Source: an uncultured Desulfovibrio sp. (GTDB lineage Bacteria; Desulfobacterota; Desulfovibrionia; Desulfovibrionales; Desulfovibrionaceae). From it: DNA of 51,459 bases. The first letter of the stretch is position 1. Each line of letters opens with the position of its first letter. The position numbers and the translations under genes are program-made. Below the pieces are notes generated by a model. The model did no database searches and was not told the DNA's origin. It saw only the letters and a list, made by a program, of their open reading frames with translations. The stretch is taken from the NCBI GenBank assembly GCA_949291675.1, contig CASEWR010000112.1:1-51459 (forward strand). The letters are read 5' to 3'. This document shows, piece by piece, positions 7,781 to 41,120 of this stretch.

Positions 7781-8200
7781 ATGATGGAAGTTGTTCGGGC
7801 CAAGCTTCACGGCATCCACGTGACAGGATGCGAGCTGGAGTATCATGGCTCTGTCACCCTTGACCCGCTGATCTGCCGTCAGGCTCGGATTTACCCACTG
7901 GAGTTCGTGTACATCTGGAACAAAAACAACGGTCAGCGCCTTGCCACCTACGTCCTGTACGGCACACCGGGGTCACGATGCTGCGTGCTCAACGGAGCTG
8001 CTGCCCGCTGCTGCCAGCCCGGTGATGAAATGATTATCTGCGCTTCCGAGTACCTTGCAGATCGCAGGGAACTCTACACCGTGCAGCCGCAGGTACTGAC
8101 CTTCGACAAAGAGAATAACGTTGTCCATCATCTCCAGTATGATGTTCTTTCCTCGCCTGAGTGCGATTTTGACTTCAGAATTTCCCATATCAATGCCTGA
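7781..8200 (+). CDS. panD: Aspartate 1-decarboxylase (PanD)
   Basis: Pyruvoyl-dependent enzyme converting L-aspartate to beta-alanine and CO2. All key features of E. coli PanD can be aligned: AKLHG with Lys8 (K9), the self-cleavage site HGS at Gly23-Ser24 (G24-S25), Arg53 and Thr56-Tyr57 (R54, T57-Y58), and the VLNGAAA motif. At 139 aa it is slightly longer than the usual 126 or so, with a C-terminal extension. I chose ATG 7781 because AAGGAG lies 8 nt upstream; the frame is open further left but shows no homology. First gene of the NRPS/PKS operon, 5 nt before the phosphopantetheinyl transferase. In this setting it probably supplies beta-alanine as a building block, since a downstream A domain has a beta-alanine-like pocket; support for pantothenate/CoA synthesis is the alternative. 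Confidence 0.9.
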
Positions 8201-8205
8201 GAGAC

Positions 8206-9030
8206 ATGCATGACAATCATGTCTTTCTCTTTCTTGCAGACGTGGAAAAGGCACTTGCAGGCAGGGAACATGAGATGGCTTCCCTGCGCAGACAGCACAT
8301 TTCCGCCTTTTCCCCGCATGCGTCACAAAGCCCCAGCAGCCCTGGCGGGCTCTTTGTAAGGCTCCTCCCCTGCCTGTCTGCCGAGGAACAGGAAAAGGCG
8401 GAGCGCTTTCATCATGCCAGGGACAGTCTTCTCTATGCAGCAGCACATGCCCTCCTGCGTCTGAGTCTGAGCCATTTCTTTCCAGTGTGCCTGCCTGCAG
8501 ACTGGCAGTTTGTCACAAACCGCTGCGGCAGACCGCTTCTTCGCCCGCATCTGCAGCAGCGCATGCGTCTTCCCTGCTATTTCAGTCTCTCGCACTCCTG
8601 GCCATACATTGCCCTTGCCCTGACCAGGTGCGGTCACTGCGGAACGGACATTGAAGCTGCCCGGACGCCTGCAGACTGGCAGGGACTGGCCCGCATGGCC
8701 TTTCACCCCGGAGAATGCGCACATCTCTTCTCCTCTTCTGCACAGGAAGTGTTCTTTCTTCGCCTGTGGACACACAGGGAAGCTGTCTGCAAGGCACTGG
8801 GCTGCGGTCTTCCCCGCGGCTTTCCTCTGCTTGAGATACGTACTTTCGGCCAGGAGATCCTTCTCAACCAGCGCAAACTCTCTGCACATATCCTTGAAGT
8901 TACCAGCCCCGCCCTTGTGCTGTGCACATGCATCCTGACCCGCAGACAAAACATGCAGTCCTCTCTGCACTGGTTTGATTTTTCCGCATCCGACTATCAC
9001 CGCAACTTCCGGGAGGTCAGCACATCATGA
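8206..9030 (+). CDS. Sfp-type 4'-phosphopantetheinyl transferase
   Basis: 274-aa enzyme expected to move the 4'-phosphopantetheine arm of CoA onto the conserved Ser of the carrier domains encoded downstream. Family motifs: GTDIEA (residues 146-151, with the Mg-binding Asp148 and Glu150) and LWTHREAVCKALG (187-199). The last corresponds to W-x-x-K-E-A-x-x-K-x-x-G but has Arg191 in place of the usual Lys before the catalytic Glu192. Length fits the larger Sfp/EntD group. The stop overlaps the next start (ATGA at 9027), so it is probably co-translated with the loading module. Pairing with panD suggests a self-contained kit for activating carriers and supplying beta-alanine. Confidence 0.88.
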   Translation: MHDNHVFLFLADVEKALAGREHEMASLRRQHISAFSPHASQSPSSPGGLFVRLLPCLSAEEQEKAERFHHARDSLLYAAAHALLRLSLSHFFPVCLPADWQFVTNRCGRPLLRPHLQQRMRLPCYFSLSHSWPYIALALTRCGHCGTDIEAARTPADWQGLARMAFHPGECAHLFSSSAQEVFFLRLWTHREAVCKALGCGLPRGFPLLEIRTFGQEILLNQRKLSAHILEVTSPALVLCTCILTRRQNMQSSLHWFDFSASDYHRNFREVSTS

Positions 9031-10817
9031 ATGCCACTGCCCCTGCACAATCACCATTGATCAGGCGCATGGATGCTCTTTTTGCAGCGCATGCGGATGC
9101 TGTTGCCGTGATTGACAACGAGCACACGCTGACCTTTGCCCGCCTTGAGGCTGCAGCAAATGCCCTGGCCGGGGAGCTGCTCAGGCGTCACATCAGTGTT
9201 GTGGGCCTGTACATGACCCGCAGTGCTGCCAGCGTCGTGGCTGCCGTCGCTGCAGCCAGGGCAGGTGTCGCCTACGTGCCCATGGGGCTCGACTGGCCTG
9301 CTGCCCGCTGCCGGCGCATTGCCGAACGCTGCGGCCTTGCAGCCGTATGTGTTGCAAAGGCTGATGCTGCACACTGCACCTGGGCAGGGGACCTGCCCCT
9401 GCTTGACCCTGCTGACTTTCTTGCCTGCACCATGGCGCAGAAGCCGGACTGCAGCCCTTGTGCAGACACAATTCTCTACATCATGCACACATCAGGCTCC
9501 ACCGGAGAGCCCAAGGGCGTGCGTGTGCATCATGCAGGCATACACTCCATTTTCTCGGCAGTCTCTCACCTCGGCTATGTCCCAGGTCAGCGCATGGTCC
9601 ATGCCGCCTCCATGACCTTCGACATGTCCATCATGGAGCTGTGGGGCGGCCTGCTCAACGGCTGCACCCTCTGCATCAGCACTCCCGAAACCCTGCTTGA
9701 TGCACGCGCACTTGAAAACTTTCTTGTCGCACACAGCATTGGCCTGCTGCTTCTGCCCACAAGTGTCTTCCATGCCGTTGCCTCACAGGACCCCGCTGTC
9801 TTCCGCTCCCTCCACCATCTGTGCTTTGGCGGGGAAATGCCAGGCAGGGCTGCCATTGCCGCAGTGCTGCAGGCCTGCCCCAATCTGCACCTGCACAACT
9901 GCTACGGCCCCACGGAATGCAGCGTCTTTGTGGCGGCAGCAACGCTGACACCCCGGATGCTGCAGGAGAGACATATCCCTGCCGGCAGGGCTGTGGGGGC
10001 AGGACACTTTCTCATTGTTGATGACAACACTGCGCCGCTTGCCTGCGGTGAGGAAGGAGAACTGCTCATCTGCGGTCCCTGCGTGGCCCTGGGGTATGTG
10101 CAGGAAGAAGAGAAGAACAAGGCCTTCCTCACCCTTGCCGACGGGACCAGAGCCTACAAAAGCGGCGATCTTGCCTGCCTGCAGGAGGACGGCACGCTGT
10201 ACGTCCTTGGCCGCAAAGACGATCAGATCAAGATTTCCGGCTGCCGCATCGAGCCCGGCGAAGTCTGCGCAGCTCTGCAGAGGGCCGAAGGCGTCCGCAT
10301 GGCCCATATCGGCGTGCTGCGCGGACAGCAGACGCACCTTGCAGCCTATGTTGTGCCTGCCGACACCCAGGCTGACACCAGTGCGCTGGAAGCTCATCTG
10401 CGCACCTTCCTGCACTCTCAGCTGCCGGACTACATGGTCCCGCGCCACTTTTTCTTTCTGGACGAGCTTCCCCTCACCTCCAGCGGCAAAATTGACAAAG
10501 CTCGTCTGCCAGGCCTGCCCAAACTGCAGGAAGCCGCCCCTGCCACGCACGATCCTGTGCTGCATATCTTCCGCACAGTGCTGGAGAATCCCTCCTTCGA
10601 GCAGACGGACTCCTTTCTTGAGGCCGGCGGCAGCTCCATCATGGCTGCCAGACTCATTGCCGCCCTGCGCGAGCACTCGGGCATTGCCGTCCCCTTCTCC
10701 CTGATTCTGGAGCCGCACACTGCCGCCAGAGCCAGTCTGTACATCGAAAATGCCAGACTGGCACAGCAGCAGCATTCAGACACTTCTGCACCTGACATCA
10801 TCACGGCGAGGATCTGA
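9027..10817 (+). CDS. NRPS loading module, A-T
   Basis: 596-aa initiation module with no condensation domain. Adenylation domain about residues 10-500: A3 HTSGSTGEPKG (154-164), A5 CYGPTE, A7 YKSGD, A8 GRKDDQIKISGCRIEPGE, A10 SSGKIDK. Carrier domain near 510-580 with the phosphopantetheine site EAGGSS (Ser537). The A4 region reads SMTFDMSIMELW, keeping the Asp that binds an alpha-amino group, so the starter should be an alpha-amino acid rather than salicylate or 2,3-dihydroxybenzoate. By-eye pocket D-M-M-L-C-G-C-V-F-K matches no code I know. Its stop overlaps the next start (TGATG at 10815-10819). Domain assignment secure; substrate unknown. Confidence 0.88.
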   Translation: MNATAPAQSPLIRRMDALFAAHADAVAVIDNEHTLTFARLEAAANALAGELLRRHISVVGLYMTRSAASVVAAVAAARAGVAYVPMGLDWPAARCRRIAERCGLAAVCVAKADAAHCTWAGDLPLLDPADFLACTMAQKPDCSPCADTILYIMHTSGSTGEPKGVRVHHAGIHSIFSAVSHLGYVPGQRMVHAASMTFDMSIMELWGGLLNGCTLCISTPETLLDARALENFLVAHSIGLLLLPTSVFHAVASQDPAVFRSLHHLCFGGEMPGRAAIAAVLQACPNLHLHNCYGPTECSVFVAAATLTPRMLQERHIPAGRAVGAGHFLIVDDNTAPLACGEEGELLICGPCVALGYVQEEEKNKAFLTLADGTRAYKSGDLACLQEDGTLYVLGRKDDQIKISGCRIEPGEVCAALQRAEGVRMAHIGVLRGQQTHLAAYVVPADTQADTSALEAHLRTFLHSQLPDYMVPRHFFFLDELPLTSSGKIDKARLPGLPKLQEAAPATHDPVLHIFRTVLENPSFEQTDSFLEAGGSSIMAARLIAALREHSGIAVPFSLILEPHTAARASLYIENARLAQQQHSDTSAPDIITARI

Positions 10818-13800
10818 TGACTTCTCCCACCCTTCAGGATTACGACGACCTCTCCTTCCTGCTGGCCCTGCGCAAAAAGGGCGTTGTCCTGTGCGCAGAA
10901 GGCGAGGACCTGGTCTGCAGAGGCAATGCGCAGGCTCTGACAAAGGAGGTGCTGGCAAGGCTTCGCAGCCGCAAGAGCGCCATCATGGCCCTGCTCGCAC
11001 AGGAACAGCGCGCAAGCGATCTGCCGCAGCTTGTTGCGGACCCTGAGCAGCGCTTTGCCCCCTTTCCCCTGACCGAGAACCAGCAGGCCTACTGGCTCGG
11101 CCGTGACACCTCCATGGCCTTCGGCAATGTCGGCATCCATGTCTTCTTTGAGATCGAGCTGCAGGACTTTTCCAGACAGCGCTTCGAGGATGCCTGGAAC
11201 TGCCTTCTCAGGCGTCATGACATGCTGCGGGCCAGGGTGCTGCCGGATGGCACACAGCAGGTGCTGGCCAGTGTGCCAGCCTTTCACCTTGCCGTCACGG
11301 ACCTGCGCGGACTTTCTCAAACTGAGCAGAACAGCCTGCTTGCCGTGCATGCCGACAGGCTTTCCCATACCTGCTACGCTCTTGAGCACTGGCCGCAGAC
11401 AAGCTTTCAGGCCTTTGTGCTGCCAGACGGCAAAACAAGGCTCATGGCCAGCATCGACTGCTGGTGCCTGGACGGACACAGTCTGCAGATCCTCATGCGC
11501 GAACTTGCTGCCCTGTACAGGGGCGAGGAACTGCCTCCTGCACCTGCCTGCACCTTCCGCGACTATGTCCTGGCCCTCACCTCGTTTCGCACAAGCAGGC
11601 TGTGGCAGCAGAGCCTTGCCTACTGGCACAGAAAACTGCAAACCCTGCCTCCTGCCCCTGTGCTGCCTGGCAGACAGGCCTCGCACAGACCTGATGCATT
11701 GTCTGCCAGACCCGTTTTCCGGCGCCTTGAAGACGTTGTTGCCGCTGACGCGTTTGCAGCCCTTGTCAGCCGCCTGCGCTCGCACGATCTCACGCTCTCG
11801 GCCTTTTTGCTCACCTGCTATGCGGAAGTACTGGGCCACTGGAGCAGCGAGCCGCGTTTCACCATCAATGTGCCCCGCAGCAACAGACTGCCGCTGCACA
11901 AGGACATTGACGCATGCGCAGGGGAATTTGCCAGCTTTTCCCTGACAGCCATGGACCTTTCCGATCCGCAGCAGACCTTCCTTGCCAGGTGCAAGGCTGT
12001 GCAGAAGCAGGTCTGGGAGGATCTTGAGCACGATCATGTCTCCGGCGTCACAGTCCTGCGGGCCTGGAGGCAGCAGACAGGCGCCGGCACACAGACTGGC
12101 ATGCCCTTTGTCTTCACAAGCGAGCCCGAAAGCGGCGGCAGGGGCAGGGACTCCTCCTGGATTGCCGCCCTGGAGCAGATGGGCACAGTGTGCCGGACCC
12201 TGACCACAACTCCGCAAGTCTGGCTCGATGCCCAGTACGGCAGAATCAGAGACAGACTGCACCTGTCCTGGGATGTGCTGGAGGGCGTCTTTGCAGCCTC
12301 GCTTCCCGAGTGCATGTTTGCCGCCTGCGTGCGCCTCATCCGGGCCATGGCAGCAGATGACGCCCCCTGGCAGCAGCCGCACCCTCTCTGCACCGCTGTC
12401 ACAACAGGCTGCAGCTACAGTGTGGAAAACGGCCCGGTCCTTCCCCTGCGCGAGGAAGGCTGCCTGGACATTCTGGCAGCACGTGCCAGCACCCGCGGCC
12501 ATGAAACTGCCCTGACAGACAGCGCAGGCTCCCTGACCTGGCAGGAAAGCCTTGCGGTGGTGCGCAGTCTTTGCAATGCCCTGCACAGCGCAGGCTGCGG
12601 CAGGGGCTCGCGCGTGGGCCTGCTGCTGCACAAGGGACGCTGGCAGGCACTGGCCTCCTTTGCCGTGCATGCTGCAGGCGGCATCCTTGTCCCCCTGGAT
12701 GCGGATGCGCCCGAAAGCCGGCTGCGCAGCATGCTGCACAGCTGCGGTGCAGGTCTTGTGCTCACGGACGGCAGCGATCTTGCCGGCCTGAGCACTGTCC
12801 TGGACCTGCCGGCCTGCCATCTGCCCGCTGCCTTTCTGTCCGCTGAGTTCAGGGACATGCCGGCCCTGCGTCCCGCAGACCCTGTCTGCGAAGAGGAGCT
12901 GTTTGCCCTGATCCATACCTCTGGCAGCACAGGCACGCCCAAGGCCGTCATGGTGCCCTGCAGGGGCGTTGTCAATGCCATGGAAGGCTTCAGGCGCATG
13001 GCTGACCTCGGCCAGGACACACCTGCCCTTGCCCTGTCTCCCTTCCATCACGACATGGCCATGCCGGACTACATGGGCAATCTGCTGCTGGGCATTCCCC
13101 TGGTCTATCCTGAGCATGTAAGGCGCAAGGATCCGCAGCACTGGCTTGAACTCATCACCAGACATGCTGTCGGCTTCTGGAACAGCGTTCCTGCCATGAT
13201 GACCATGCTCATGGAATACATGGCTGCCCACGACAGCAGCCCCCTGACCAGCCTGCGCCTTGTGACCCTCGGAGGCGACTGGCTGCCTCTGGCCACAGTT
13301 GCTGCCCTCCTTGCCCGTGCTCCCCGGGCAAGGGTGTACAGCATCGGCGGGCCCACGGAAATTTCCCTGGCCAATATCTGCTTCCCTGTCACAGCCATTG
13401 ACCCTGCCTGGACCTCCATTCCCTATGGCAGACCCTTCCCCAATACAGGCTATGAGGTGCGCAATGCCCTCGGACAGCTCTGCCCCAGGGGCGTGGCTGG
13501 AGAATTGTGCTGCACAGGAGCGTTCATGTCGCCAGGCTACCTTGGCGATGCCGAGCGCACCCGCAGGGCCTTCACAGTCACGCAGGACGGCAGACGTCTC
13601 TATCACACAGGCGACATGGGCCGCATGCGCGAGGACGGAGTCATTGAATTTCTGGGCAGAAAGGACACCCAGGTCAAGATTCACGGCTACCGCATCGAGC
13701 TGAGCGAAATCGAGCATGTGCTGCGCTGCCACACGCATGTCCATGAGGCTGTTGTCTGCCTCCACGAGAGCAGCAGACTGTGTGCCTGGATTCAGACAGC

Positions 13801-16800
13801 GTCGGGCGTTGTCCTGCCGGAGCAGGAGCTGCGCAGCTTTGCGGCAGACAGACTGCCATCCTACATGGTCCCTGCCTTCTTCGGCTTCTGCCAGGCCTTT
13901 CCCCTGACTGCCAACGGCAAGCTGGACAGACGCACCATTGCCGGCTGGCCGGCAGTGCAGAAAGCTGCTGTCTGCAGCCCGCAGACTGCGGCAGAGCGCA
14001 GTGTCTGCGCTGCCTGGAAGGAAGTCCTCGGCCATGCTCCCGCCTCTGTGCACAGCAATTTCTTTGAGGCAGGCGGCGACTCCCTGTCTGCCATACGGCT
14101 TTTGAACCTCCTGCATGCCCGGGGATCCTCCTCCCTCTCGGTCATGGATATCTTCAGATATCCCACCCCGGCTACGCTTGCGCAACGTGTGCAGGGCAGT
14201 GCCGCAGACGAGGCAGACCTTCCGCCCCTGCGCCCCTGCGCAGGCAGAAACAGCCCCTCTGCTGACGGCACACTGACTGTCCCTGCCACCAGTGCCCAGG
14301 CCAGACTGTGGCTTGAGGCACGCACACGGCCCGATGCTGCCTACATTCTGCCCTTCAGATTCAGGGTCAGCGGCAGCATTGATCCGCTGCTGCTTGAGCA
14401 GGCCCTCAATGCCGTGCTGCTCAGACACGAGGCCCTGCGCACCACAGTGCACGGCTGCCCCAGGCCTGCAGCAGAAGGCCAGCCGGACAGTGCCGGGCTG
14501 CACATTGTCCAGAAGGTGCACAGGGACTGCCGCCTTGTCCTGCAGAAACGGGATCTGCGCGGCTCAGACCAGGCAGGACAACAGGCCGATGCCTTCTTCC
14601 GCGAACTTGCCACTGTCCCCTTTGACCTTGAGCAGGCACCGCTGCTGCGGGCTGGCCTTGTGCTTCTTGCTGCCAGCGAGGCAGAGCTCATCCTTGTCTT
14701 CCACCATGCCATCTTCGACGGCTGGTCCATGCAGATTGTTCTGCGCAGCCTGCAGGAAGCACTGCAGCATGCCCAGAAAACCCCACAGAACGCTCAGGGT
14801 GCCCAGGGCGCTTCCCAACACATGGTGCAGGACAAGGCATGCACACACGCTGCCGCCCCTGCTGCCCGCAAAACGCCTGACTATGCGGACCTTGGCGAGT
14901 GGGAACAGTCCGCAGCAGTGCAAAAGGCCTGCGCAAAGCGCCTGCGCACGCTCACAAAAGCCCTTGCCAGGGTGCAGGCCCCGCAGCTTCCCGACTGGAA
15001 GGCCCTGTCCCGCACATCAGAGACGTGCGAGGCCACGCTCTTTTGCGAGCTGACGCTCTCTCCTGCCTGCGCACAGCTTCTGCAGGCGCGTGCAGCCTCG
15101 GCAGGAATCACCCCCTTCATCTTCGGCCTTGCAGCCTTCACCATTCTGGTCTCGCGCATCAGCGGCGAGGAGAACCTGCTGCTCGGCACCTATGCAGCCC
15201 TGCGCAGCAGACCGGAGTTTGAAACCATAGCAGGCCTGCTGGTCAACCCTGTCCCCCTGATTGTGCCCGCAGGCAGTGCCAGCAGTACAGCCGACATCCT
15301 CAGCCTGTGCCGCACGGCTGTCATTGAGGCAGCTGAGTGCGCAGTCCTGCCCTTTGATCGCCTGGTCAGGGAAGTGGCACCAGAGCGCAGGCCTGGCAGG
15401 CATCCTCTCTTTGAACTTGCCTTCAGTCAGGACAATACCGGGGACGCTGTCATCAGCGCTGCAGGCATGCAGCTTGAGCTTCTCCCCGGCGGACGTCACG
15501 GCACTGCCATGAGCCTTGAAGTGGCCATGCGCAGCGGCGAACACCCTGCCTTTGAGGCAGTGGCAGATGGCAGACTGTGGACAGAGGAGGCCCTGCAGGC
15601 CTTTGTGCAGCGGCTTTCCTTCGTGCTGGAACAGATTCTGCACAAGCCTGACCTGCCCCTGGCAGACATCAGCCTGTGCACAGACACAGAAAAAGCAGCG
15701 CTTGCGGCCAGTTCCACCACAGCCCCACTGCCCGGGCTCTGGCCCTCCCTGTGGGAGCGCTGTACTGCCATTGCCGCGGCAAAGCCGCATACCATCTGCC
15801 TGTTCGGCAGAGAGGAATGCACCTATGCCGAACTGATCGACAGGGCAGGACAGCTTGCAGCGCACATGGAACGGGCAGCAGCCCAGGGCTGCATTGCCCT
15901 CTTTCTTGCGCGCGGTCCCGCACTTGTGGCTGCCATGCTTGCAGCCTGGCGCAATGGCCGCTGCGTCCTGCCCCTGAGCAGGCTGCAGCCTGTGCTGCGC
16001 AACAGACAGATGCTGACCATGGCTGCTCCGGGCCTGCTGGTCACGGACAGCACAGAGCAGGCAGCAGCTCTCCTTGGCAGCATGGACAGTTCTCTCTGCC
16101 CTGTGCTTGTTCTGGACGAGCTGCAGCACGGGCTTTCGGACGAGAGACAGGACAAGCCGCGGGGCAATCTGCAGAACGAGCTGCAGGACAATCTGCAGGA
16201 GGGCCTGCCGGACGAGATGCAGGCTGCGGCAGGTCTGCAGCAGGGGGCAGGGACGGATGACGCAGCCGCGCTGATGCTGTTTACCTCCGGCTCCACAGGG
16301 ACCCCCAAGGGCGTGGTTATTGGCAGCAGAGCGCTTGTGAACAGACTGCAGTGGGCTGGAGAAGTCCTGCCCTATGCCGCAGATGAGCGTGCCTGCGCCA
16401 GGGCAGACATAGGCTTTATTGATGCCACAACAGAGCTCTTCGGGCCGTTGCTGCACGGTATTCCTGTACATGTGCTGCCTGACGAGGACATTGTGCATCT
16501 CGATCGCCTCTTTGCACTGTTGCATGCTGCAGACATTACCAGACTTGTGGCAGTACCTGGCGCTCTGCGTACCCTGGCAGCCCTGGCCAACCTGAAAAAG
16601 CGGCCTCTTGCAGGGATTCGTGTCCTCATTTCCAGCGGAGAACCGTTGTACGGGCCCCTTCTTCAGGAGCTTCAGCAGGCCTTCCCCAATGCCCGCATCT
16701 GCAATTTCTACGGCAGCACGGAAATGACCGGCGAGGCTGCCTGGCACAGTACCACCAGGGAGGATGCACACCATGCCGCAGTCCCCCTGGGGCGGCCCCT

Positions 16801-17707: not shown

Positions 17708-17709
17708 CA

Positions 17710-27800: not shown

Positions 27801-28330
27801 CGCAGCATGCTGCCCCGGGGTCAGGCGCTCTGGAAGCGGACGCAGCAACCTCTGGCACCCCGAAGGCCGGCGTCCTGAACGCTGACGCGCTGGAAGTCGA
27901 ACTGACAGCCTGGCTCAAGGAACATCTGCCCGTGCAGATGCTTCCCAGGCTCTGGTGCTTTACGGATACCCTGCCCCTGACAGCCAACGGCAAGGTGGAC
28001 AGAAAGGCTCTTGCTGCAGAGCTTGCACACCGGCAGTCCCTGGTTGTGCAGGAGAGCACGGACAAGGGACCGCAGACCCCGCTGGAGCGCCTGCTTTGCG
28101 AGCTGTGGCAGGAAGTGCTGGGCAGCCCTGTCCCTGGTGTGCAGGCCAATTTCTTCCGCCTTGGCGGAGACTCCCTCAAGGCTGTGCAGATTCTCACCAG
28201 ACTGAAGGAAAAACTGCCCGTTCCCCTGTCCCTGGCAGCCTTCTTTGCCACGCCCACTGTAGAAGGCCTGGCACAGACCATCATCGCCCGCATCAGTGCC
28301 GTCACGAGCAGGGCGTGCGGGGAGAACTGA
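24833..28330 (+). CDS. NRPS, Cy-A-T (Cys-like)
   Basis: 1165 aa. Heterocyclization domain (about 40-470) beginning PFPLSDMQQAYWIGR with Cy motif DMWATD (174-179), a full adenylation domain (A3 LTSGTTGTPKA at 690-700, A7 YRTGD, A8 GRTDFQINIGGYRLDPAE, A10 TANGKVDRK), and a carrier RLGGDS (Ser1114). The A4 region ALHHDLSVYDIF and FWNSVPAF match cysteine-activating A domains; by eye the pocket is D-L-Y-N-T-G-I-V-W-K against the Cys code D-L-Y-N-L-S-L-I-W-K. This module should add Cys and cyclize it to a thiazoline onto the acyl chain from the KS-ACP protein. No epimerase, reductase or methyltransferase. The start codon is uncertain: no clear ribosome-binding site, and the frame is open upstream. 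Confidence 0.87.
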   Translation: MLQPPPGHAALAARAAARKNRQDSPFLVSRPDERYQPFPLSDMQQAYWIGRSADLQGGGVAMQSCVELDCPALDTGRFEQALTALVERHDMLHAVVTEDGRQRVLPLPVHFPLTIRDLSALAPEEQERQIAMHAARMETWVSDLSRWPQSEVHFFLLGRNQDGTCRGVLHFRWDMWATDGRSFQILYEDLAALYLDPQAQLPPLPVTFRDYMLALQAHESSPAFQRSLRYWLKELPALPPAPVFPAVQDNGGTTGTAVKRYTAVISREETDFLVRHCAGHGLSLTALLAALYSEVTGLWSASPAFTLNMPRFNRNLHWHASLNHVMGEFATFTLVPVNLRDGNCLLERARALQKTLWNCLEHADVSGVRLLRELARSRGGLAADAMPVIFTAMPARKSSDKGVEQVLRAFGTVRATHGSTPQTTLDCQYTLFNDCLHLYWDARLSAFPPGMTDAMFAEFVRIVRCAATDAAAWTVPHLAALPEDQARVRRLRNNRPLALPDETVCMSFVRRAMADPHAPLLYDDQLCLSCGQVLTHALAVRRAVLDSISTHRVSQGHSAASSAAAGTAGAEHGDVAPLSVALLMERGWKSIVCILGIQLAGLAYLPLDCTNPGPRLHHMLRSGRACAVISEEDVRQRLDPATLARDGIVHLHAERICPAAALHCDSFAASLPAELAATAAKRTDPAYILLTSGTTGTPKAVVVSQDNVLNLCTATNATFAMTAKDRILAVTALHHDLSVYDIFAALSTGAGLVLLPGEQARDPDTWIECMLRHRVSFWNSVPAFLKLLAQRCEEKGVRLPVRIFTAGGDWVEAALPARLRAIAPDAAFYSIGGPTETTVWNIMYKVEDKLPQGWSVIPYGAATENNSYYLLDDELREVPDWVTGEMYCAGANVCLDILSDKPEQRFAVHPQTGERLYRTGDVGRFHPDGLIEILGRTDFQINIGGYRLDPAEIETTLLRHPAVERAIVVPAGQRSGHSGHVLAVFILPAPQHAAPGSGALEADAATSGTPKAGVLNADALEVELTAWLKEHLPVQMLPRLWCFTDTLPLTANGKVDRKALAAELAHRQSLVVQESTDKGPQTPLERLLCELWQEVLGSPVPGVQANFFRLGGDSLKAVQILTRLKEKLPVPLSLAAFFATPTVEGLAQTIIARISAVTSRACGEN

Positions 28331-28403: not shown

Positions 28404-28454
28404 AGCCGAAAGCCCGCCAAAAGACCGCGAAGGAAAGCCAGAGGAGAGCTGACC

Positions 28455-33437: not shown

Positions 33438-36400
33438 GCAAGACCTACCCGTACGATGAGCACTGCATTGCCGTCATCGGCATGGCTGCCAGGCTGCCCG
33501 GAGCAGACAGTGTCCAGGCCTTCTGGGACAACCTTGTGGCAGGCCGCCAGAGCATGGAGCCCATTCCTGACGACATCCTGGCTGCAGGGCTGCATGCCGC
33601 ACTTCGCCATGAGCCGGACTACGTGGCCATGCGCAGCAGCCTTGCGGACTTTGATCTCTTTGACGCAGAATTCTTCGGCTTCTCGCCCAGGGACGCCAGC
33701 ATCATGGACCCGCAGCACAGACTGGTGCTCGAATACGCCTGGCGGGCCTTTGAAAACGCTGGCTATGTGCCCGGTGACACAGACGGCCTGCGCACCGGCG
33801 TCTATGCCAGTTCGGACATGAGCGGCTATCTCACCGGCTGCCTCTATCACCATATTCTCTCCGGTGCCGTTGATGTCACCGAGGCCGTCATCGGCTGCGA
33901 CAAGGACTATCTGGCCACCCGCATTGCCTACAAATGCAACCTGCACGGTCCTGCCATGGCCGTGCAGTCCTCCTGCTCCTCCTCGCTGTTGAGCGTGCAT
34001 ACAGCCTGCCAGGCCCTGCTTGCCGACGAATGCGACCGCGCCCTGGTCACTGCCTGCACTGTCATGCTGCCGGAAAACCTGGGCTATATCTACCTGCCCG
34101 GCGGCATGCGCTCCCCGGACGGACGCTGCCGCCCCTATGATGCAGGGGCAAACGGCACCATCTTTGCCAACGGCGTGCTGGCTGTGCTGCTCAAGCGCCT
34201 TGCTGACGCTGTGCACGACAGGGACACAATCCTTGCTGTGGTCAGGGCCACGGCAGCCTCCAATGACGGCTGCGACAAGGTCGGCTACACAGCGCCGAGC
34301 ATCCATGGCCAGGCCATGGCCATATCCTCAGCCCTGGAGCTGGCAGGTGTGGACCCTGCTGATGTGGATTTTGTGGAAGGCCACGGCACTGCCACTCCCC
34401 TTGGCGATCCCATTGAAGTGGCTGCCCTGCACAGGGCCTATGCCGGCGACACAACCAGTCAGGCCAGAGAACCCCGGGCAAAGCCCATCCTTCTCGGCTC
34501 GCTCAAGGGCAATATCGGCCATCTTGATGCTGCTGCGGGCCTGGCCAGCTTTGCCAAGGCAAGCCTCTGCCTGCATCACCGCACCTTCCCCGGCACTGCC
34601 AATTTCGAGCGTCCCAATCCGGCCTTCGGCGACCTTGCCCCCTTTGCCGTCTCAGGCAGCACGGTCAGGCTGCCCGAAACAGGCTGCCTGCTCGGCGGGG
34701 TCAGTGCCTTCGGCATCGGCGGCACCAATGTCCATGCCATTTTGCAAAGTGCCCCGGACAGACCCCAGCGCACCCCAAAAACAGGGCGCCTGCCCCTTCT
34801 CTTTTCCGCACACAATGAAGAGGCCTTTGCAAAGACACAAGCCGGGCTTCGCACCTTTTTGCACACACAGGCCAGCCAGGAGGAGACCAGCACCCATGCC
34901 GGGCCATACTTTGCCGATACTGCTGCCACCCTTGCCAGGGGCCGCAAGGCACAGCCTGTACGCGGCAGTGTCACTGCCGCCTCCCATGCCGATGCTGCAG
35001 CCCTGCTTGCAGACGATATCCTGCCCCGCTGTGTGTCAGAAACAGACTGCCCCCTGGCCTTCCTCTTCCCTGGCCAGGGCAATCTGCACCCGGACATGGC
35101 CCGCTCCTTTTACGCGCAGGAAGAAGGCTTTCGCAGCGCATTCAGGGAGCTGAACACCATCTGCACAGCAGCCGCAGGGCCGGATCTGGAAAAGCTTCTG
35201 ACACAGTGCTGGAACGGGGAGGAGGCAGCCAGGGCTGCCCTGTGCCGCACAGACACTGCCCAGCCCCTGCTCTTTGCCCTGGAGCTCTCCCTGGCCAGGC
35301 TGCTCATGCAGCGCGGTGTGACCCCTGACTGCCTCATCGGCCACAGCCTTGGCGAATACACTGCAGCCTGCATTGCAGGCGTCTTCTCCCCTGAAGACGG
35401 CATGCGTCTTGTCACACAGCGCGGCGCGCTCATGCAGACTGCGCCGCAGGGCAGAATGCTGGTCGTCTCCCTGCATCCTTCCAGGGTACGCGATGTGCTC
35501 GGCCCTGCCTTTGCCGGCGTGGAGATTTCCCTCATCAACAGTGCCGCCAACTGCGTGCTTACCGGCGACGATGCCGCCCTGGAGGCCTGCGCGCGCATTG
35601 TGGCAGAGCACGGCCAGCGCGCCACCTGGCTTGCGACCTCCCATGCCTTCCATTCGGCCAGCATGGAACCTGTCATGGATGCCTTTGGCGAGCTTGTGGC
35701 AGGCCTGACGCTTCATGCGCCAGAGATTCCTGTGGTGAGCAATCTGACCGGCACCTGGGCAGGGGCAGAGATGGCCACTGCAGACTACTGGGTCAGACAT
35801 CTGCGCAGCACTGTGCAGTTTGCCAGAGGCCTTGCCACACTGCGCACCAGGGTTACGACCGGTATCGAGGCAGGTCCGGGCAATGTGCTGCGCTCCCTGG
35901 CCACCCAGCAGCCCGGGGACAAGCTGCGCGTTGTGCCTGGCCTGGATCCCCTGAAATCCGCCACTGGGACTGCTGAGCGCTGCCTTGCCGACATTGCCGC
36001 AGAGTGCTGGCTGCAGGGAGCAGGGATTGACTGGGATGCCTTTTTTGCACCCTGTGAGCCCTGGCGCTGCCCTGTGCCGGAAACAGTCTTCACGCCCAGG
36101 CGCTACTGGATTGCACCTGGTGCTGCAGTGCAGGTGCAGGGCCAGGCCGAATGCGTGCAGCTGCCGGACATGCAGGACAACAGCGGAGCAGAATCAGGCT
36201 CAGGCCCGGGAAAATACGCCCGCAGCTGCCGTACAGCCTATGCACAGGCTGGCACAGAGGTGGAGCGCATCCTGGTCAGCCTCTGGGAAGAGCTGCTCTT
36301 CATGGATCAGGTGGGCATTGACGATGATTTTGTGGAGCTGGGCGGCAATTCCATTCAGGTCATGCAGATGGTCCGCCAGGCAGCTGGCCTTGGGCTGAGC

Positions 36401-37879
36401 TTCTCCTCAAAGGACGTCTTTGAGGCTGCAACCATCCGCAACCTTGCCGGGCGGGTGCAGCGCAGTGCAGCTGTGCGCTCTGTGCGCCCCGGCCCTGTGC
36501 CTGTGCCGGCCTTTCTGGCCCCTGCCCTTCGCCACGGCACGGATGCCCTTGCCGCGTATCAGCTCTTTGCCTGCCCGCAGGGCTTTGCAAGGGCACAGGC
36601 AGGCGACCTTGCCACTGCTCTTGCCAGGCGCCATGACGCCTTGCGCATGAGCTGGCAGGGCACTGCCCTGCGCCTTGACAGTGCCGGTGCCTGCGAGTGG
36701 GGCAGCAACAATGTGGAGGCCGCACATGCTGTGTGCGACGACGACGGCAGACCTGATGCGGCCCGCGTTCAGGCCGAGTGCCTGCGCCTGAGTGCAGGCC
36801 TGCAGCCCGAGCATCACAGAGCCTGGCTGCTGGGCCTGTGCGCGGACAAAGTCCCGCACCTTGTCCTGCTTGTGCACACAGCCCTGGCAGATCAGCAGAG
36901 CATGGACATCCTTGGCCGCGACATCCGCCATTTCCTGCAGCATGGCGTGCTGCCGGAAGAAGCAGACAGCCTGCAGCAGCATTCCTGGAAACTCTGGCTG
37001 GAAGACCTTGCAGCCGGGCCTGACAAGGATGCGTCTGGCAAGGGTGCGCATGCCGAGGAAGCGCCTGGCTGGAATGCGTCTGGCAAAGCAGCCGGGGCCG
37101 CCCCTGCCCGTTCCGCCTGCGAGGAGCGGGACGTGCGCACCATGACCTGCCTGCTTGACAAAGAGCTGACAGAAGCGCTCGCCGAGGCTGCCACTGCCTG
37201 CCGGGCTTCCTGCGGGGAACTGCTGCTGGCAGCAGTCAGCCTGTGCCTGAAAAAGGCCGGCAGCCCTGACGTTGCCCCTGGCGTTGCCCCTGACTTTGCC
37301 CCTGACTGCATCCATTGCCTGTGCAGTGGCCGCCACCTGCCCCTGCCCTGCCCGAACCCGGATGACATTGTCGGCCTCATGGCCTGCTACCATCCTGTTG
37401 CCCTGCCTGCAGAAGACACAGCTGCTGCCAGCATCCCGCATGTCAAACAAGGTCTGCGCGCCTTTGCGCAGCAGCCGGCTGCATGCTGGCGCGCAGGGAC
37501 AGTGCAGCGCCCGGTTGCTGTGACCTTCAGCTGCAGGGAAAGCGAGGGAAGCCGGGAAGCATGGGCAGGCACTGAAGACGGCTGCCTGCACTGCCAAGGC
37601 CGGGTCAGCCCTGCAGAAAGGCAGCTGGACAGCCTGCTCGACTGCCGGGTCAGATGGAGCGCTCAGGGCACAGAGCTTGTGCTGCGCTGCGCACCTGCTG
37701 CAGAGACTGCAGCTGCGTTCCTGTGCCACAGCCTTGCAGACCAGGCTGGCGAACTGGCCCTGCTGGCCAGGACCAGCCCTGACGCCCAGCGCTACCTTGT
37801 GGAAGAATTCCCGGATTCCGAACTGACGCAGGCCGACCTCGACATCATTCTCAACCAGCTTGCCGGAGTGCAGTCATGA
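33434..37879 (+). CDS. PKS, KS-AT-ACP with C-terminal decayed E/C-like domain
   Basis: 1481 aa, GTG start after a strong AAGGAGG, overlapping the previous stop by 4 nt. Ketosynthase: SSCSSS (Cys181), EGHGTAT (His317), KGNIGH (His363). Acyltransferase: FPGQGN, GHSLGEY (Ser638) and HAFH (737-740), the malonyl-CoA-type signature. Carrier ELGGNS (Ser973). The last 450 or so residues look like an epimerization/condensation domain that has lost its catalytic motif: LVLLVHTALADQQSMDIL has H-T-x-x-x-D-Q (His1148) in place of HHxxxDG. This is the only recognisable AT in the window, so it may also load the AT-less KS-ACP protein. No KR or DH, so a beta-keto unit is expected. The stop overlaps the next ATG (ATGA). 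Confidence 0.88.
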   Translation: MSKTYPYDEHCIAVIGMAARLPGADSVQAFWDNLVAGRQSMEPIPDDILAAGLHAALRHEPDYVAMRSSLADFDLFDAEFFGFSPRDASIMDPQHRLVLEYAWRAFENAGYVPGDTDGLRTGVYASSDMSGYLTGCLYHHILSGAVDVTEAVIGCDKDYLATRIAYKCNLHGPAMAVQSSCSSSLLSVHTACQALLADECDRALVTACTVMLPENLGYIYLPGGMRSPDGRCRPYDAGANGTIFANGVLAVLLKRLADAVHDRDTILAVVRATAASNDGCDKVGYTAPSIHGQAMAISSALELAGVDPADVDFVEGHGTATPLGDPIEVAALHRAYAGDTTSQAREPRAKPILLGSLKGNIGHLDAAAGLASFAKASLCLHHRTFPGTANFERPNPAFGDLAPFAVSGSTVRLPETGCLLGGVSAFGIGGTNVHAILQSAPDRPQRTPKTGRLPLLFSAHNEEAFAKTQAGLRTFLHTQASQEETSTHAGPYFADTAATLARGRKAQPVRGSVTAASHADAAALLADDILPRCVSETDCPLAFLFPGQGNLHPDMARSFYAQEEGFRSAFRELNTICTAAAGPDLEKLLTQCWNGEEAARAALCRTDTAQPLLFALELSLARLLMQRGVTPDCLIGHSLGEYTAACIAGVFSPEDGMRLVTQRGALMQTAPQGRMLVVSLHPSRVRDVLGPAFAGVEISLINSAANCVLTGDDAALEACARIVAEHGQRATWLATSHAFHSASMEPVMDAFGELVAGLTLHAPEIPVVSNLTGTWAGAEMATADYWVRHLRSTVQFARGLATLRTRVTTGIEAGPGNVLRSLATQQPGDKLRVVPGLDPLKSATGTAERCLADIAAECWLQGAGIDWDAFFAPCEPWRCPVPETVFTPRRYWIAPGAAVQVQGQAECVQLPDMQDNSGAESGSGPGKYARSCRTAYAQAGTEVERILVSLWEELLFMDQVGIDDDFVELGGNSIQVMQMVRQAAGLGLSFSSKDVFEAATIRNLAGRVQRSAAVRSVRPGPVPVPAFLAPALRHGTDALAAYQLFACPQGFARAQAGDLATALARRHDALRMSWQGTALRLDSAGACEWGSNNVEAAHAVCDDDGRPDAARVQAECLRLSAGLQPEHHRAWLLGLCADKVPHLVLLVHTALADQQSMDILGRDIRHFLQHGVLPEEADSLQQHSWKLWLEDLAAGPDKDASGKGAHAEEAPGWNASGKAAGAAPARSACEERDVRTMTCLLDKELTEALAEAATACRASCGELLLAAVSLCLKKAGSPDVAPGVAPDFAPDCIHCLCSGRHLPLPCPNPDDIVGLMACYHPVALPAEDTAAASIPHVKQGLRAFAQQPAACWRAGTVQRPVAVTFSCRESEGSREAWAGTEDGCLHCQGRVSPAERQLDSLLDCRVRWSAQGTELVLRCAPAAETAAAFLCHSLADQAGELALLARTSPDAQRYLVEEFPDSELTQADLDIILNQLAGVQS

Positions 37880-39240
37880 CCACATCGCAGCCCGTTCTTC
37901 CCTACAGACTCACGGACATCTTTCCGCTGTCTCCGGTGCAGACCTTCATGCTGGATGTTTCCAGACAGACACCCAGCGGTCTGGCCTTCCAGCAGCAGTA
38001 TACCTACTACCTTTCCGGCAGCATTGAGCCGGAGCTCGTGCGCAGGGCATGGGAGCATATCTGCGCACGCCACCCTTCCCTGCGCACCTCCTTCCACTAT
38101 GCCGGCACAAGCAAACCCTTTCAGGCAGTGCATGACACAAGCTCCCTCTGCTTTGTCTTCAGGGATTTGCGCGCCCTTGCCCCGGAGGAACGCAATGCAG
38201 CGGCCTTTGCCTGGCTCATGGAGGATGCAAAAAAGCCCTTCAACCTCCTTGTGCCCCCGCTCATGCGCATAGGCCTGCAGCAGATGGAGGAGACCACCTT
38301 TCTGCTCACCCTCACCATGAGCCATCTGATCTTTGACGGCTGGTCCCTTGGTGCAGCCTTCGGGCTTTTCGGCAGGACCTATGCCGACCTTGCCGGGGGC
38401 AGGGAGCCTGACAGCACCATCTTTCCCTCCCTGCATCAGTACGTCTCCTGGTACAGACAGCGCGATGCTGCCAGGGAGACGGCCTGGTGGCAGGAACAGC
38501 TGCATGATGCTGTCATGCCCAGACTGCCCTTCATGAAGATGCCGGAACAGCAGGGGCCGGTTGAGGCGGATCAGATCCATCACCTGGTCTTCACGCAGGA
38601 GGAGACCGCAGCTCTGGAGGAGGCAGCACGGGACACAAACGTGACCCTCAACGTCCTCTATCAGGCGGCCTGGGCACTTATCCTCTCCCGCCTTTCCCCG
38701 CAGCGCAGGGCGCTCATGCTGACCGTTGCCGCCTCACGTCCTGTGGAGCTGGCAGACATTGATCAGGTCTTCGGCCTGCTCATAGACGGCATCCCCTACA
38801 ATCTGCACTGCCCCGGCGACACAACAGTCCGCTCCTGGCTCAGGGAACTGCGCGCCCTGCAGCTGGAGAGCCTGGAACATCAGTACTGCCCCATACAATC
38901 CTGGCTGCAGACAGGAAAAGAACCCGGCGTCATTCCCTACAATTCCTATCTGATCTTTGAAAATATGGCCACAGGAGAAGGCGCCAGAGAGGATACGGAC
39001 CTTACCCTGCAGGCTGCCTACATGAACTCCAATCTGAGTTTTCCCCTGTCCATGATGGTCTTCCCGGGCAAGGCCCTGCGTGTCGCCATCATCTACAGCC
39101 GGGACTTCTTCACAGAAGAGAAGATTGTCGCCTTTGCCGGGCGTTTGCGCGAGACACTGAACACCCTGGCAGCACATCCTGATGCCAGCCTTGATGCCAT
39201 CAGTGCCATGGCCCTGCTTGATGAAGAACATCTGAGCTGA
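37876..39240 (+). CDS. Free-standing condensation domain protein
   Basis: 454-aa single condensation domain, starting DIFPLSPVQTFML and carrying SHLIFDG, in which the first His of HHxxxDG is Ser but the catalytic second His (His150) and the DG are kept. Other C-domain signs: RHPSLRTSF, the DQVFGLLIDGIPYNL segment, and SLEHQYCP. There is no carrier or A domain. Free-standing C domains such as VibH join a carrier-bound acyl chain to a free amine or act in trans. Being last before the thioesterases and after an E/C-like decayed domain, this one could complete the terminal condensation, release the chain onto an amine, or replace the lost function of its neighbour. ATGA overlap with the upstream PKS implies coupled translation. 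Confidence 0.85.
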   Translation: MTTSQPVLPYRLTDIFPLSPVQTFMLDVSRQTPSGLAFQQQYTYYLSGSIEPELVRRAWEHICARHPSLRTSFHYAGTSKPFQAVHDTSSLCFVFRDLRALAPEERNAAAFAWLMEDAKKPFNLLVPPLMRIGLQQMEETTFLLTLTMSHLIFDGWSLGAAFGLFGRTYADLAGGREPDSTIFPSLHQYVSWYRQRDAARETAWWQEQLHDAVMPRLPFMKMPEQQGPVEADQIHHLVFTQEETAALEEAARDTNVTLNVLYQAAWALILSRLSPQRRALMLTVAASRPVELADIDQVFGLLIDGIPYNLHCPGDTTVRSWLRELRALQLESLEHQYCPIQSWLQTGKEPGVIPYNSYLIFENMATGEGAREDTDLTLQAAYMNSNLSFPLSMMVFPGKALRVAIIYSRDFFTEEKIVAFAGRLRETLNTLAAHPDASLDAISAMALLDEEHLS

Positions 39241-39488
39241 CCGGCCGGACGCAGGTGCGTCTCCCGTACTCCTGTGCGGCAAATGTACTGACGAGCCCAT
39301 CCTGTACTGCCGTGCGGCAAATGTGCGGCAAAGACTGTCGTTTGCCGCCTCCCCTGTCCCAATGCCCCTGCTTCATAAGCCCGGTTCCAGAGACCCTGAC
39401 GAAGGGCCCTGCTCTTTCCCACACTGCTTTGAAAGAAGCGGACAGCAACTGCCCGCTTCTTTCAAGGCCAAGCCCTGCGAGAGTCCGC

Positions 39489-40349
39489 ATGCCTGAGATG
39501 ACTACGGCTTCTGCCTCCCCTTCTGCACAGCCTGCTTCCGCCTGGCTGCCCAATATGCCGGACAGGCGCGCCTGCCTGCCCAGACTCTTCTGCTTTTCCT
39601 ATGCCGGCGGCACAAGCGAGCTTTTCCGGCAGTGGCAGAGCGGTCTTGCCGATACCTGCCTCATCTGCCCTGTGGAGCTGCCAGGCAGGGGCACACGCAT
39701 GGATGAACCCTTTGCCGCAAGTCTTCCTGAAGCAGCCAGGCAGGCGGCTCAGGCCATCCTGCAGCACACAGCCTTCCCCTATCTGCTCTTCGGACACAGC
39801 CTTGGCAGTGTCCTTGCCCTGGAGACTGCCCGCTTTCTGCAGGAATGTTGCGCACAGCCTCCACTTGCCCTGCTTGTCTCCGGCAGATACCCGCCACACC
39901 TGCCTGCCAGGCGAAGGAATCTGCATGACATGCCCGACGCGGCCCTCATTGACGAGATGCGCAGGCTTGGCGGCACAACAGAAGACATTCTGGACAATCA
40001 GGAGCTGCTGGACATGATGCTGCCCATTGTGCGCGACGATTTCCGCCTGCTTGAGACACACAGCGCAAGTCCTTCCCCCTGCCTGCACATCCCTGTGCAT
40101 GTCTTGTGCGGCAGGGAGGATGACGATTCTCCCCTGGAGCTGCTGGCCTGCTGGCAGGATGTAACAGACGCGCCCTGCTCCATAGACCTTTTTGACGGCG
40201 GCCACTTCTACATCCATGAGAGCAGGGCACAGCTGCTGCGACGCCTGCGCGCCCTGATACACAAGGACCTGAGCAGGGACCAGAGCAGGGACATGCATAA
40301 TGATCTGCATACTGCTCTGCACAAGGGCCCCTGCCCCACATCTGCCTGA
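39489..40349 (+). CDS. Type II thioesterase (Ser nucleophile)
   Basis: 286-aa alpha/beta-hydrolase of the GrsT/YbtT type: LFCFSYAGG oxyanion segment, nucleophile GHSLGS (Ser104), acid region CGREDDDSP and catalytic His in GGHFYIHE (His239). Type II enzymes remove wrongly loaded acyl groups from carrier domains. Because no NRPS or PKS protein here ends in a thioesterase domain, this one or the next could also release the product. Start chosen at ATG 39489, after CGAGAG; ATG 39498 is also possible. The 248-bp spacer before it (39241-39488) repeats TGCGGCAAATGT and shows no gene. Confidence 0.85.
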   Translation: MPEMTTASASPSAQPASAWLPNMPDRRACLPRLFCFSYAGGTSELFRQWQSGLADTCLICPVELPGRGTRMDEPFAASLPEAARQAAQAILQHTAFPYLLFGHSLGSVLALETARFLQECCAQPPLALLVSGRYPPHLPARRRNLHDMPDAALIDEMRRLGGTTEDILDNQELLDMMLPIVRDDFRLLETHSASPSPCLHIPVHVLCGREDDDSPLELLACWQDVTDAPCSIDLFDGGHFYIHESRAQLLRRLRALIHKDLSRDQSRDMHNDLHTALHKGPCPTSA

Positions 40350-40367
40350 AGCACAGGAATGACCGTC

Positions 40368-41120
40368 ATGGATGCACCTGCCATTGCCCGCTGGCTGCCT
40401 GTCCAACCCGCAGCCTCCGCACTGCCCGTCTTCTGCTTCCCCTTTGCCGGCGGAGGCATTTCCCTGTTCCGCACCTGGCAGGAGAAGGTGCCCGAACCTG
40501 TACAGATCTGCCCCGTTGCCCTGCCAGGCAGGGAAAAAAGACTGGCAGAGCCTTCCATAGCCTCGCTGGAAGAACTTGTTGCAACCATCTGCACGCTGCT
40601 GCAGCCCTGGCTGCACCGCCCCTTTGCCCTCTACGGGCACTGCTTTGGCGGCAGCCTGGCCTTTGCCGTGACCCTGGCCCTGCAAAAGCAGGGGGCTGCT
40701 CCCGCCCTTCTGGCTGTCTCTGGCTGCAGAGCTGCACACCTGCCCCCGCCCTTTTGCATCGCAGATCTGCCGGAAGAGGACTTCATCGAGGCGCTGCGCC
40801 GCTTCAGACTGACGCCCGAGACCGTGCTCTCCATCCCGGAGCTCCTTGCCCTCTTCCTTCCTGCCCTGCGCACGGACTTCGCCCTGGACGAGCGCATCCG
40901 CTGCTTTGCCAAGCGCCCTGTGCTCTCTGCTCCCCTCCTTGTCCTGCACGGCACCGGGGATGCCATCATTCCCCGGGAGGCTGCCCTTGCCTGGCAGGAC
41001 TACAGCACAAAGGGATGCGATATTGTGCAGGTGGAAGGCCCGCACATCTTCTTTGCTGACGATCCCGGTCTTGTGCTGCGGCCTCTGGTCGAAAAACTCC
41101 TGGCACTGGAAGGCTGCTGA
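40368..41120 (+). CDS. Thioesterase with Cys nucleophile (GHCFGG)
   Basis: About 250-aa thioesterase of the same family as its upstream neighbour: VFCFPFAGGG, GHCFGG, acid in GTGDAIIP (Asp198) and His in EGPHIFF (His226). The nucleophile elbow GHSxGG has Cys92 instead of Ser. Thioesterase domains with Cys nucleophiles are known but uncommon and give longer-lived thioester intermediates; some form strained rings. It may be the true release enzyme while the Ser-type neighbour does editing, or it may have altered hydrolytic activity. I prefer ATG 40368, with AGGA 9 nt upstream; ATG 40359 directly abuts AGGA and is less likely. Last gene of the biosynthetic operon. Confidence 0.85.
   Translation: MDAPAIARWLPVQPAASALPVFCFPFAGGGISLFRTWQEKVPEPVQICPVALPGREKRLAEPSIASLEELVATICTLLQPWLHRPFALYGHCFGGSLAFAVTLALQKQGAAPALLAVSGCRAAHLPPPFCIADLPEEDFIEALRRFRLTPETVLSIPELLALFLPALRTDFALDERIRCFAKRPVLSAPLLVLHGTGDAIIPREAALAWQDYSTKGCDIVQVEGPHIFFADDPGLVLRPLVEKLLALEGC

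Follow-up and report, generated by a model that had tools for sequence, protein, structure and literature searches.

A run of twelve genes headed by panD, in a 51,459-nucleotide stretch of DNA from an uncultured Desulfovibrio sp. of the gut-type sulfate reducers (the window, which is contig 112 of a source genome, G000, that is 3.07 Mb long and 98.6% complete), encodes a hybrid nonribosomal peptide synthetase and polyketide synthase (NRPS/PKS) assembly line. With its flanking transport and regulatory genes, it very probably constitutes a unit for the biosynthesis, export and uptake of a Fur-repressed peptide-polyketide metallophore of Desulfovibrio. The product is likely a member of an undescribed metallophore family, the nearest characterised cluster having been compared by its published description only.

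The panD-headed assembly line, its promoter and its transporters

All twelve genes (7781-41120) are intact and lie on the + strand, with overlaps of a few bases between several of them. Scans with Pfam, NCBIfam and motifs read them in order as panD, a phosphopantetheinyl transferase gene, A-PCP, Cy-A-PCP-C-A-PCP, C-x-PCP, KS-x-ACP, Cy-A-PCP, C-A-MT-PCP, KS-AT-ACP-C', a free-standing C and two thioesterases (Table 1), so that modular NRPS and PKS genes stand together with carrier-protein activation. Diverging from panD on the − strand are a TonB receptor gene and two ABC half-transporter genes, and 3' of the biosynthetic run follow an AraC-family regulator, a MATE-adaptor fusion and MacB-type genes. 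A preliminary description of this DNA had proposed the panD-headed hybrid run, which these scans confirm after correction of two gene starts, most likely to 17710 for NRPS2 and 21815 for PKS1 (first in-frame ATG). NCBIfam whole-protein NRPS names (MxcG, AusA and similar) scored far below their cut-offs and were not used.

Both of the Cy domains claimed earlier fit DxxxxD (DCWCLDG and DMWATDG) and are accompanied by an A domain that reads as Cys-specific. HHxxxDG is present in the second C of NRPS1 and in the C domains of NRPS2 and NRPS4, the free-standing C reads SHLIFDG with the second His kept, and the motif scan found no HHxxxDG-type motif in the C' of PKS2. The two PKS proteins are there as described, each with intact KS Cys and His motifs; the AT motif GHSLG occurs in PKS2 and not in PKS1, and the lack of a recognisable AT in PKS1 is a point absent from the preliminary description. 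Domain scans found no KR or DH in the PKS modules. In those cluster genes that were scanned no O2-dependent enzyme was seen, as befits an anaerobe. Thioesterase 2 has Cys at the nucleophile position in all five orthologous clusters, in which thioesterase 1 keeps Ser; the counterpart of thioesterase 2 in a related line, G042, gave no motif match.

Orthologous clusters occur in four further genomes of the genus, Desulfovibrio sp. An276 included, with variants in two more (G151 and G042). The five carriers, drawn from 79 genomes of the genus, are G000, G041, G048, G055 and G108; a genome scan in which 3 loci were confirmed out of 33 pattern matches gives names within this group, namely An276, Candidatus Desulfovibrio intestinipullorum and an uncultured Desulfovibrio. 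With the free-standing C as query, matches were found in 13 of 288 family genomes at E<=1e-30, five of them (own genome included) at 59-100% identity and the remainder at 26-33%, and in 10 of 348 genomes of a class sample at E<=1e-40, the same five included. Almost the whole gene set lies on a single contig in G041 and G055; the cluster of G048 stops at panD close to a contig end, with the receptor side outside the contig, and that of G108 is divided between two contigs with both ends matching. G151 and G042 represent clearly related but distinct lines within the Desulfovibrionaceae, and G246 shares a part only, with other enzymes. Because the frames are all open and the unit recurs in four further genomes, chance or artefact is ruled out. 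In G246, which belongs to another genus, a C-A-PCP protein adjoins 2-hydroxyacid dehydrogenase, acetaldehyde dehydrogenase, HMGL-like and citrate-lyase-ligase-type proteins (L032:4094-10591 and L033:448-2895).

The cluster had also been called Fur-type, and its promoter bears this out. The 17-bp Fur box of delta-proteobacteria (dFUR) is given as WTGAAAATNATTTTCAW in the available extracts of Rodionov 2004 (PMC545781). The two best matches to it in the 51 kb, predicted Fur boxes both, fall in the divergent promoter shared by the receptor side and panD (Table 1), the next best site scoring 12/16; the best site in each of 20 shuffles, which kept base composition only, scored 11-13 (the + strand was read, the box being palindromic). 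Boxes of this kind are shared with the relatives: a similar palindrome lies upstream of panD, by eye, in G041, G048, G055 and G151, and G108 has two Fur-like boxes between panD and the receptor gene. Across six relatives the pattern TTGAAA-N5-TTTCAA with up to two mismatches has at least 9-22 sites per genome, against 0-4 for the reversed control, and with up to one mismatch it has 14 sites in the source genome, against 3 for the control. A box scoring 14 lies about 500 bp upstream of a feoB match on contig 152, and another precedes a receptor-feoA-feoB run on contig 49. For regulon support we used only the feoB loci and the cluster sites, most of the other sites being unexplained. An Escherichia coli-type Fur 19-mer reached at most 13/19 in the window, none of it in the promoter, where the delta-type box fits; the E. 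coli Fur profile is recorded, in the same extracts of PMC545781, as having given no candidates in delta-proteobacteria. As a separate observation, the run on contig 49 (L056, 206-5250) consists of a TonB receptor-like gene upstream of feoA-feoB, receptor and feoA having been recognised by eye.

The transport genes provide both a TonB receptor and a candidate inner-membrane importer. The best PDB sequence match of the receptor is the FyuA/pesticin receptor 4epa (E 9e-42), and those of the ABC proteins, counting only half-transporters since full-length ABCB/P-gp chains rank higher, are YbtQ and IrtA/YbtP. The FyuA-like receptor and YbtPQ-like pair named earlier are thus upheld; they lie outside the biosynthetic run but are part of the unit, diverging from panD in the window, G041, G108 and G151 and forming part of the cluster in G055 and G042. 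The regulator, previously termed YbtA-like, belongs to the AraC family by its Pfam match, and genes 49-61% identical to it lie beside the cluster in G041, G048 and G108 (there at a contig end), with no match in the G055 stretch. The receptor and ABC pair are presumably cognate to the product, and the regulator presumably has a YbtA/PchR-like role. The MATE-adaptor protein, fused also in G041 and G048 and encoded by separate genes in G055 and G246, is a possible exporter of the metallophore.

Predicted product, beta-alanine supply and module decay

We read A-domain codes by alignment to PheA, in PheA numbering. The loading A domain (DMMLCGCVFK) keeps Asp235 and is of alpha-amino-acid type, in line with the loading module described before; its code is identical in G041 and G048 and has one change in G055. 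In the first Cy module, DMPNTGILAK keeps N278 as Cys codes do, and G151 has DLFNLGSGWK at this place. The first residue is thus predicted to be an alpha-amino acid and the first Cy residue to be Cys-like. Two domains, NRPS1-A2 and NRPS4, have lost Asp235 and carry Asp at 236 with a V-x-S core, and are the beta-amino-acid-type A domains that had been claimed: across the window, G041, G048 and G055 their codes are (I/V)DTV(I/V)SFGEK and VDWV(T/S)SL(G/A)D, the last Lys of NRPS4 (SGKID) being present after the MT, outside the aligned stretch. The beta-alanine code is VDxVISxADK. NRPS4 (VDWVTSLGD) resembles it and contains the MT of the module previously assigned to N-methyl-beta-alanine, the residue we also predict; NRPS1-A2, with Glu rather than Asp at 331, may take another beta-amino acid. 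For NRPS3, the code DLYNTGIVWK fits seven of the nine positions of the Cys code family printed in the extract of PMC12283262 (Asp235, Leu236, Tyr/Trp239, Asn278, Leu/Met299, Leu/Met322, Ile/Val330, Trp331 and Lys517).

The beta-amino-acid modules and the adjacent panD would fit each other. All five PanD copies compared contain the Gly-Ser site, which we take to be the processing site. The preliminary description had spoken of a dedicated aspartate decarboxylase; the enzyme is encoded there, and its dedication is less certain in this genome, in which the cluster panD is the only one found, panC is also present and PanD may therefore serve coenzyme A (CoA) as well. A second panD, which would point to dedication of the cluster copy, lies outside the cluster in two of the five carriers (G041 and G055), and G000, G048 and G108 have the cluster copy only. 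In the genus, panD was found in 51 of 79 genomes and panC in 75, and among the good genomes in 39 and 54 of 55, respectively, leaving 16 without panD. At least 15 good genomes accordingly combine panC with a lack of panD, which implies another beta-alanine source unless assembly gaps hide the gene. A role of PanD dedicated to the pathway is likely, though in G000 the gene counts do not separate it from CoA supply.

Two modules of the line are found in fuller form in G151, where NRPS2 corresponds to a C-A-KR-PCP protein and the AT of PKS1 is present. Pfam gave no A-KR in NRPS2 and no AT in PKS1 of the window, G055 or G042. The motif scan found no A motifs in NRPS2 of G041 and G048, two loose glycine-motif matches in the former falling outside any apparent KR, and no AT motif in PKS1 of G041; PKS1 of G048, which was not in that scan, has a C-terminal half that aligns with the AT relics. 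By profile, the NRPS2 relic matches the region of G151 that holds KR and PCP (probability 98.8), most strongly over the PCP. Between the window and G041, the C, relic and PCP of NRPS2 are 59%, 48% and 88% identical and the KS, AT relic and ACP of PKS1 83%, 37% and 66%, compared with 77% for the AT and 49% for the degenerate C of PKS2; the corresponding values for G055 are 49%, 31% and 64% in NRPS2 and 78%, 34% and 66% in PKS1. That the flanking domains are more conserved than the relics places the flanks under more constraint. On these comparisons the C-PCP module of NRPS2 is a relic of C-A-KR-PCP with C and PCP conserved, and PKS1 has lost its AT, so that the AT of PKS2 probably serves it in trans.

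A third change concerns the end of the line. The free-standing C shares 32% identity with the opening C of a terminal C-A-PCP-reductase protein of G151, whose counterpart in G042 is C-A-MT-PCP-reductase, both reductases scoring over the TIGR01746 cut-off. It is probably the leftover of such a terminal module, from which A, PCP and reductase have been lost, and an altered release would follow. Decay of this kind among the relatives (a dead A-KR, a lost AT, a reductase module down to one C) amounts to a natural experiment in product change. In their own right, the related Desulfovibrionaceae lines (L034:11752-17463 and L064:1-4404) end in a beta-amino-acid module and a thioester reductase, and should thus release an aldehyde or alcohol.

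The predicted order of units is alpha-amino acid, Cys-like Cy residue, beta-amino acid, C-PCP, malonyl, Cys-thiazoline, N-methyl-beta-alanine and malonyl; it agrees with the earlier colinear reading, in which the module marked as possibly skipped can now be refined to the C-A-KR-PCP relic. In this scheme PanD would make beta-alanine and the A-PCP protein would be loaded with the alpha-amino acid, after which the first Cy would condense and cyclise the Cys-like residue and a beta-amino acid would be added. The C-PCP protein NRPS2 would hand the chain on or be charged in trans, PKS1 would add malonate with the AT of PKS2 acting in trans, the second Cy would add a cysteine thiazoline, and NRPS4 and PKS2 would add N-methyl-beta-alanine and malonate in turn. 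Release would occur either through the free-standing C onto a free amine, in the manner of VibH, a free-standing C that releases its chain onto a free amine, or through a thioesterase. Since no KR or DH was found, both ketides should stay beta-keto, offering thiazoline N together with the O and N of 1,3-dicarbonyl or enaminone groups as ligands. Cyclisation of a beta-keto thioester with cysteine yields an acylmethyl-thiazoline, which can tautomerise to an enaminone and then coordinates well through N and O; we hypothesise that such acylmethyl-thiazoline/enaminone units are the chelating groups. The metal complex would return through the receptor and ABC pair, and the Fur type of the boxes makes iron the likeliest metal.

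Known systems and competing readings

No described cluster of this build was found among the matches listed in open-access full texts, which is not a MIBiG comparison. Compared by known gene roles, yersiniabactin (ybt) has in common with the window a Cy thiazoline NRPS/PKS line, a FyuA-like receptor, a YbtPQ-like pair, an AraC-type regulator and Fur boxes, whereas here salicylate starter genes have no match over cut-off, the loading module is of alpha-amino-acid type, two beta-amino-acid modules and panD are present, the PKS modules lack a detected KR or C-MT, and a free-standing C is found. The likeness of that C to VibH lies in a separate C at the end of a line without its own A-PCP, and is one of behaviour rather than of sequence. 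G151 and G042, likened to the window by BLAST, motifs and partly Pfam, share the loading A-PCP, Cy-A-PCP-C-A-PCP, C-..-PCP, KS..ACP, Cy-A-PCP, C-A..PCP, KS-AT-ACP, receptor and ABC pair, but end in C-A(beta-amino code)-PCP-thioester reductase (with an MT in G042), and G151 keeps a recognisable A, KR and AT.

The nearest characterised cluster that we found in print is bil, for the bilothiazoles of Bilophila sp. (PMC11934131), whose extracts served for a comparison by description, not by sequence. Like the window, it belongs to the class Desulfovibrionia and has an NRPS-PKS with Cy domains, a type II thioesterase and proposed metal binding; bil alone has a 2,3-dihydroxybenzoate (DHB)/salicylate starter introduced via BilI, other A domains all predicted to be for Cys, a KR, a C-MT and four modules, and from it, according to these extracts, shunt products alone were isolated (PMC11934131). 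Neither the DHB/salicylate AMP ligase (over cut-off) nor the all-Cys modules reported for bil (PMC11934131) are found here.

Even so, an aryl-thiazoline siderophore of the yersiniabactin, pyochelin or bilothiazole pathway would have the same Cy domains, FyuA-like receptor and YbtPQ-like pair. We give it virtually no credence: salicylate synthase and DHB-AMP ligase have only sub-cut-off matches in the genome (to TIGR03494 and TIGR02275), as the preliminary description's absence of salicylate genes would have it, the loading A keeps Asp235 and beta-amino-acid modules are present. A decaying line without a product could be read from the dead A-KR, the dead AT and the lost terminal module, the A-KR relics being seen in the window, G041, G048, G055 and G042 and the AT relics in the window, G041, G055, G042 and the aligned part of G048; with relics common to several species, adjoining domains as conserved against G041 as KS (83%), PCP (88%) and C (59%), and open frames in the window, this is very improbable. 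Efflux genes lie immediately downstream, and some Bilophila bilothiazoles are antibacterial according to the extracts of PMC11934131, which would accord with a mainly antibacterial thiazoline peptide for which the MATE-adaptor and MacB proteins give self-protection and the receptor and ABC pair are incidental or take up xenosiderophores. The constant company of receptor and ABC genes, divergent from panD in four genomes and within the cluster in two, together with a Fur-like box between the receptor side and panD in all four divergent cases, makes this reading quite improbable.

The choice of metal is a closer matter. In sulfidic gut contents the physiological metal of a metallophore might be Zn, Ni, Co or Cu, Fur being simply the regulator at hand, a possibility that we rate as unlikely but real. 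No catecholate or phenolate starter genes scored over cut-off and no hydroxamate genes were found among the scanned cluster genes, and thiazoline-N and enaminone ligands favour borderline metals. The promoter boxes, in contrast, match the dFUR box, which the extracts of PMC545781 define at feoAB and fur.

Several points weigh against the reading of the unit as a Fur-repressed metallophore system. CoA synthesis may depend on the single panD of G000, exporters are the top scorers within the large fold class of the ABC pair, and two alternatives stand for the release step. To our knowledge the loading and first Cy codes are close to no known code, and neither the first amino acid nor the first Cy residue is pinned by its code. 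NRPS3 has Thr at 299 and Ile at 322, two positions at which it deviates from the published Cys family (PMC12283262, extract). The box of the feoB run on contig 49 lies 675 bp from the first gene and scores only 13/16, and several of the 14 genome sites are inside genes or beside unnamed genes, so that one site alone proves little.

The Fur-repressed metallophore reading would bear on a question raised in 2004, when siderophore transport under Fur/FoxR was predicted in Desulfovibrio with, to the surprise of the authors, no known biosynthesis pathway (PMC545781). That regulon shares with the window the 17-bp dFUR box, AraC regulators of the YbtA/PchR kind and predicted siderophore transport; it comprises transport without a known biosynthesis pathway (PMC545781), whereas the present cluster, from other Desulfovibrio species, is a candidate for biosynthesis and uptake together. 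More boldly, and with rather more doubt than belief, we propose that the product may define a new metallophore class that contains no catechol, phenol, hydroxamate or hydroxy-carboxylate. Two thiazolines would chelate the metal together with beta-dicarbonyl/enaminone units, beta-alanines serving as spacers; assembly would need no oxygen chemistry, and the free-standing C domain would release the product, the ancestral reductase module having been lost. On this proposal the cluster would be the biosynthetic arm so far missing from the siderophore physiology of Desulfovibrio. As An276, whose record carries no metagenome-assembled-genome label, is among the carriers, the question can be tested by deletion and mass spectrometry; An276 is presumably a cultured isolate. 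A metallophore made by gut bacteria that produce sulfide would be relevant to how metals are competed for in the gut.

Feature coordinates and flanking genes

Table 1. Features of the window, with predicted assignments (percentages are identities to the named relatives)
Feature	Position	Strand	Evidence or remark
ABC half-transporter 2, YbtQ-like importer of exporter fold	1315..3099	−	YbtQ 6p6i_B E 1e-96; G041 74%
ABC half-transporter 1, IrtA/YbtP-like	3036..4811	−	IrtA, YbtP E about 1e-75; G041 72%
TonB-dependent outer-membrane receptor, FyuA-like	4896..7046	−	TIGR01783 over cut-off; G041 80%
Predicted Fur box facing receptor/ABC genes	7309..7325	.	TTGAAATTCGTTTTCAA, no mismatch to TTGAAA-N5-TTTCAA; 14/16 to dFUR box
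Predicted Fur box 173 bp upstream of panD	7591..7607	.	TTGAAAACAGTTTTCAA; 14/16 to dFUR box
panD, aspartate 1-decarboxylase	7781..8200	+	PF02261 E 2e-37
4'-phosphopantetheinyl transferase	8206..9030	+	PF01648 E 2e-13
Loading protein A-PCP, alpha-amino acid predicted	9027..10817	+	PF00501, PF13193, PF00550; code DMMLCGCVFK
NRPS1 TubC-Cy-A-PCP-C-A-PCP	10817..17707	+	codes DMPNTGILAK (Cys-like), IDTVISFGEK (beta-amino-acid type)
NRPS2 C-(relic of A-KR)-PCP	17710..21834	+	Pfam lists no A or KR at E<=1
PKS1 KS-(relic of AT)-ACP	21815..24580	+	Pfam, motifs; AT present in G151
NRPS3 Cy-A-PCP, cysteine predicted	24833..28330	+	code DLYNTGIVWK
NRPS4 C-A-MT-PCP, N-methyl-beta-alanine predicted	28455..33437	+	code VDWVTSLGD
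PKS2 KS-AT-ACP-degenerate C	33434..37879	+	Pfam, motifs
Free-standing condensation domain	37876..39240	+	PF00668 E 8e-68
Thioesterase 1, Ser nucleophile GHSLG; open reading frame may start at 39255	39498..40349	+	PF00975, motif
Thioesterase 2, Cys at nucleophile position GHCFG	40359..41120	+	PF00975
AraC-family regulator	41666..42808	+	PF12833 E 2e-17
MATE exporter fused to MacA/HlyD-type adaptor	42978..45857	+	one open frame, 42900-45857; start inferred from homology
MacB-type ABC ATPase and two FtsX/MacB permeases, possible export	45897..49385	+	68-82% in G041/G048

An open reading frame at 7059-7622, considered as a gene, has no Pfam match, nor did tblastn find it in the stretches of the relatives; it is therefore probably promoter DNA. 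At the left edge, a HipA-like protein (12-1055) has Pfam matches below cut-off and no tblastn match in the stretches of seven relatives. Directly after the export genes lies a gene for HMG-CoA reductase (49460-50734; PF00368 E 1e-106), which is 81% identical in G041, with the order kept.

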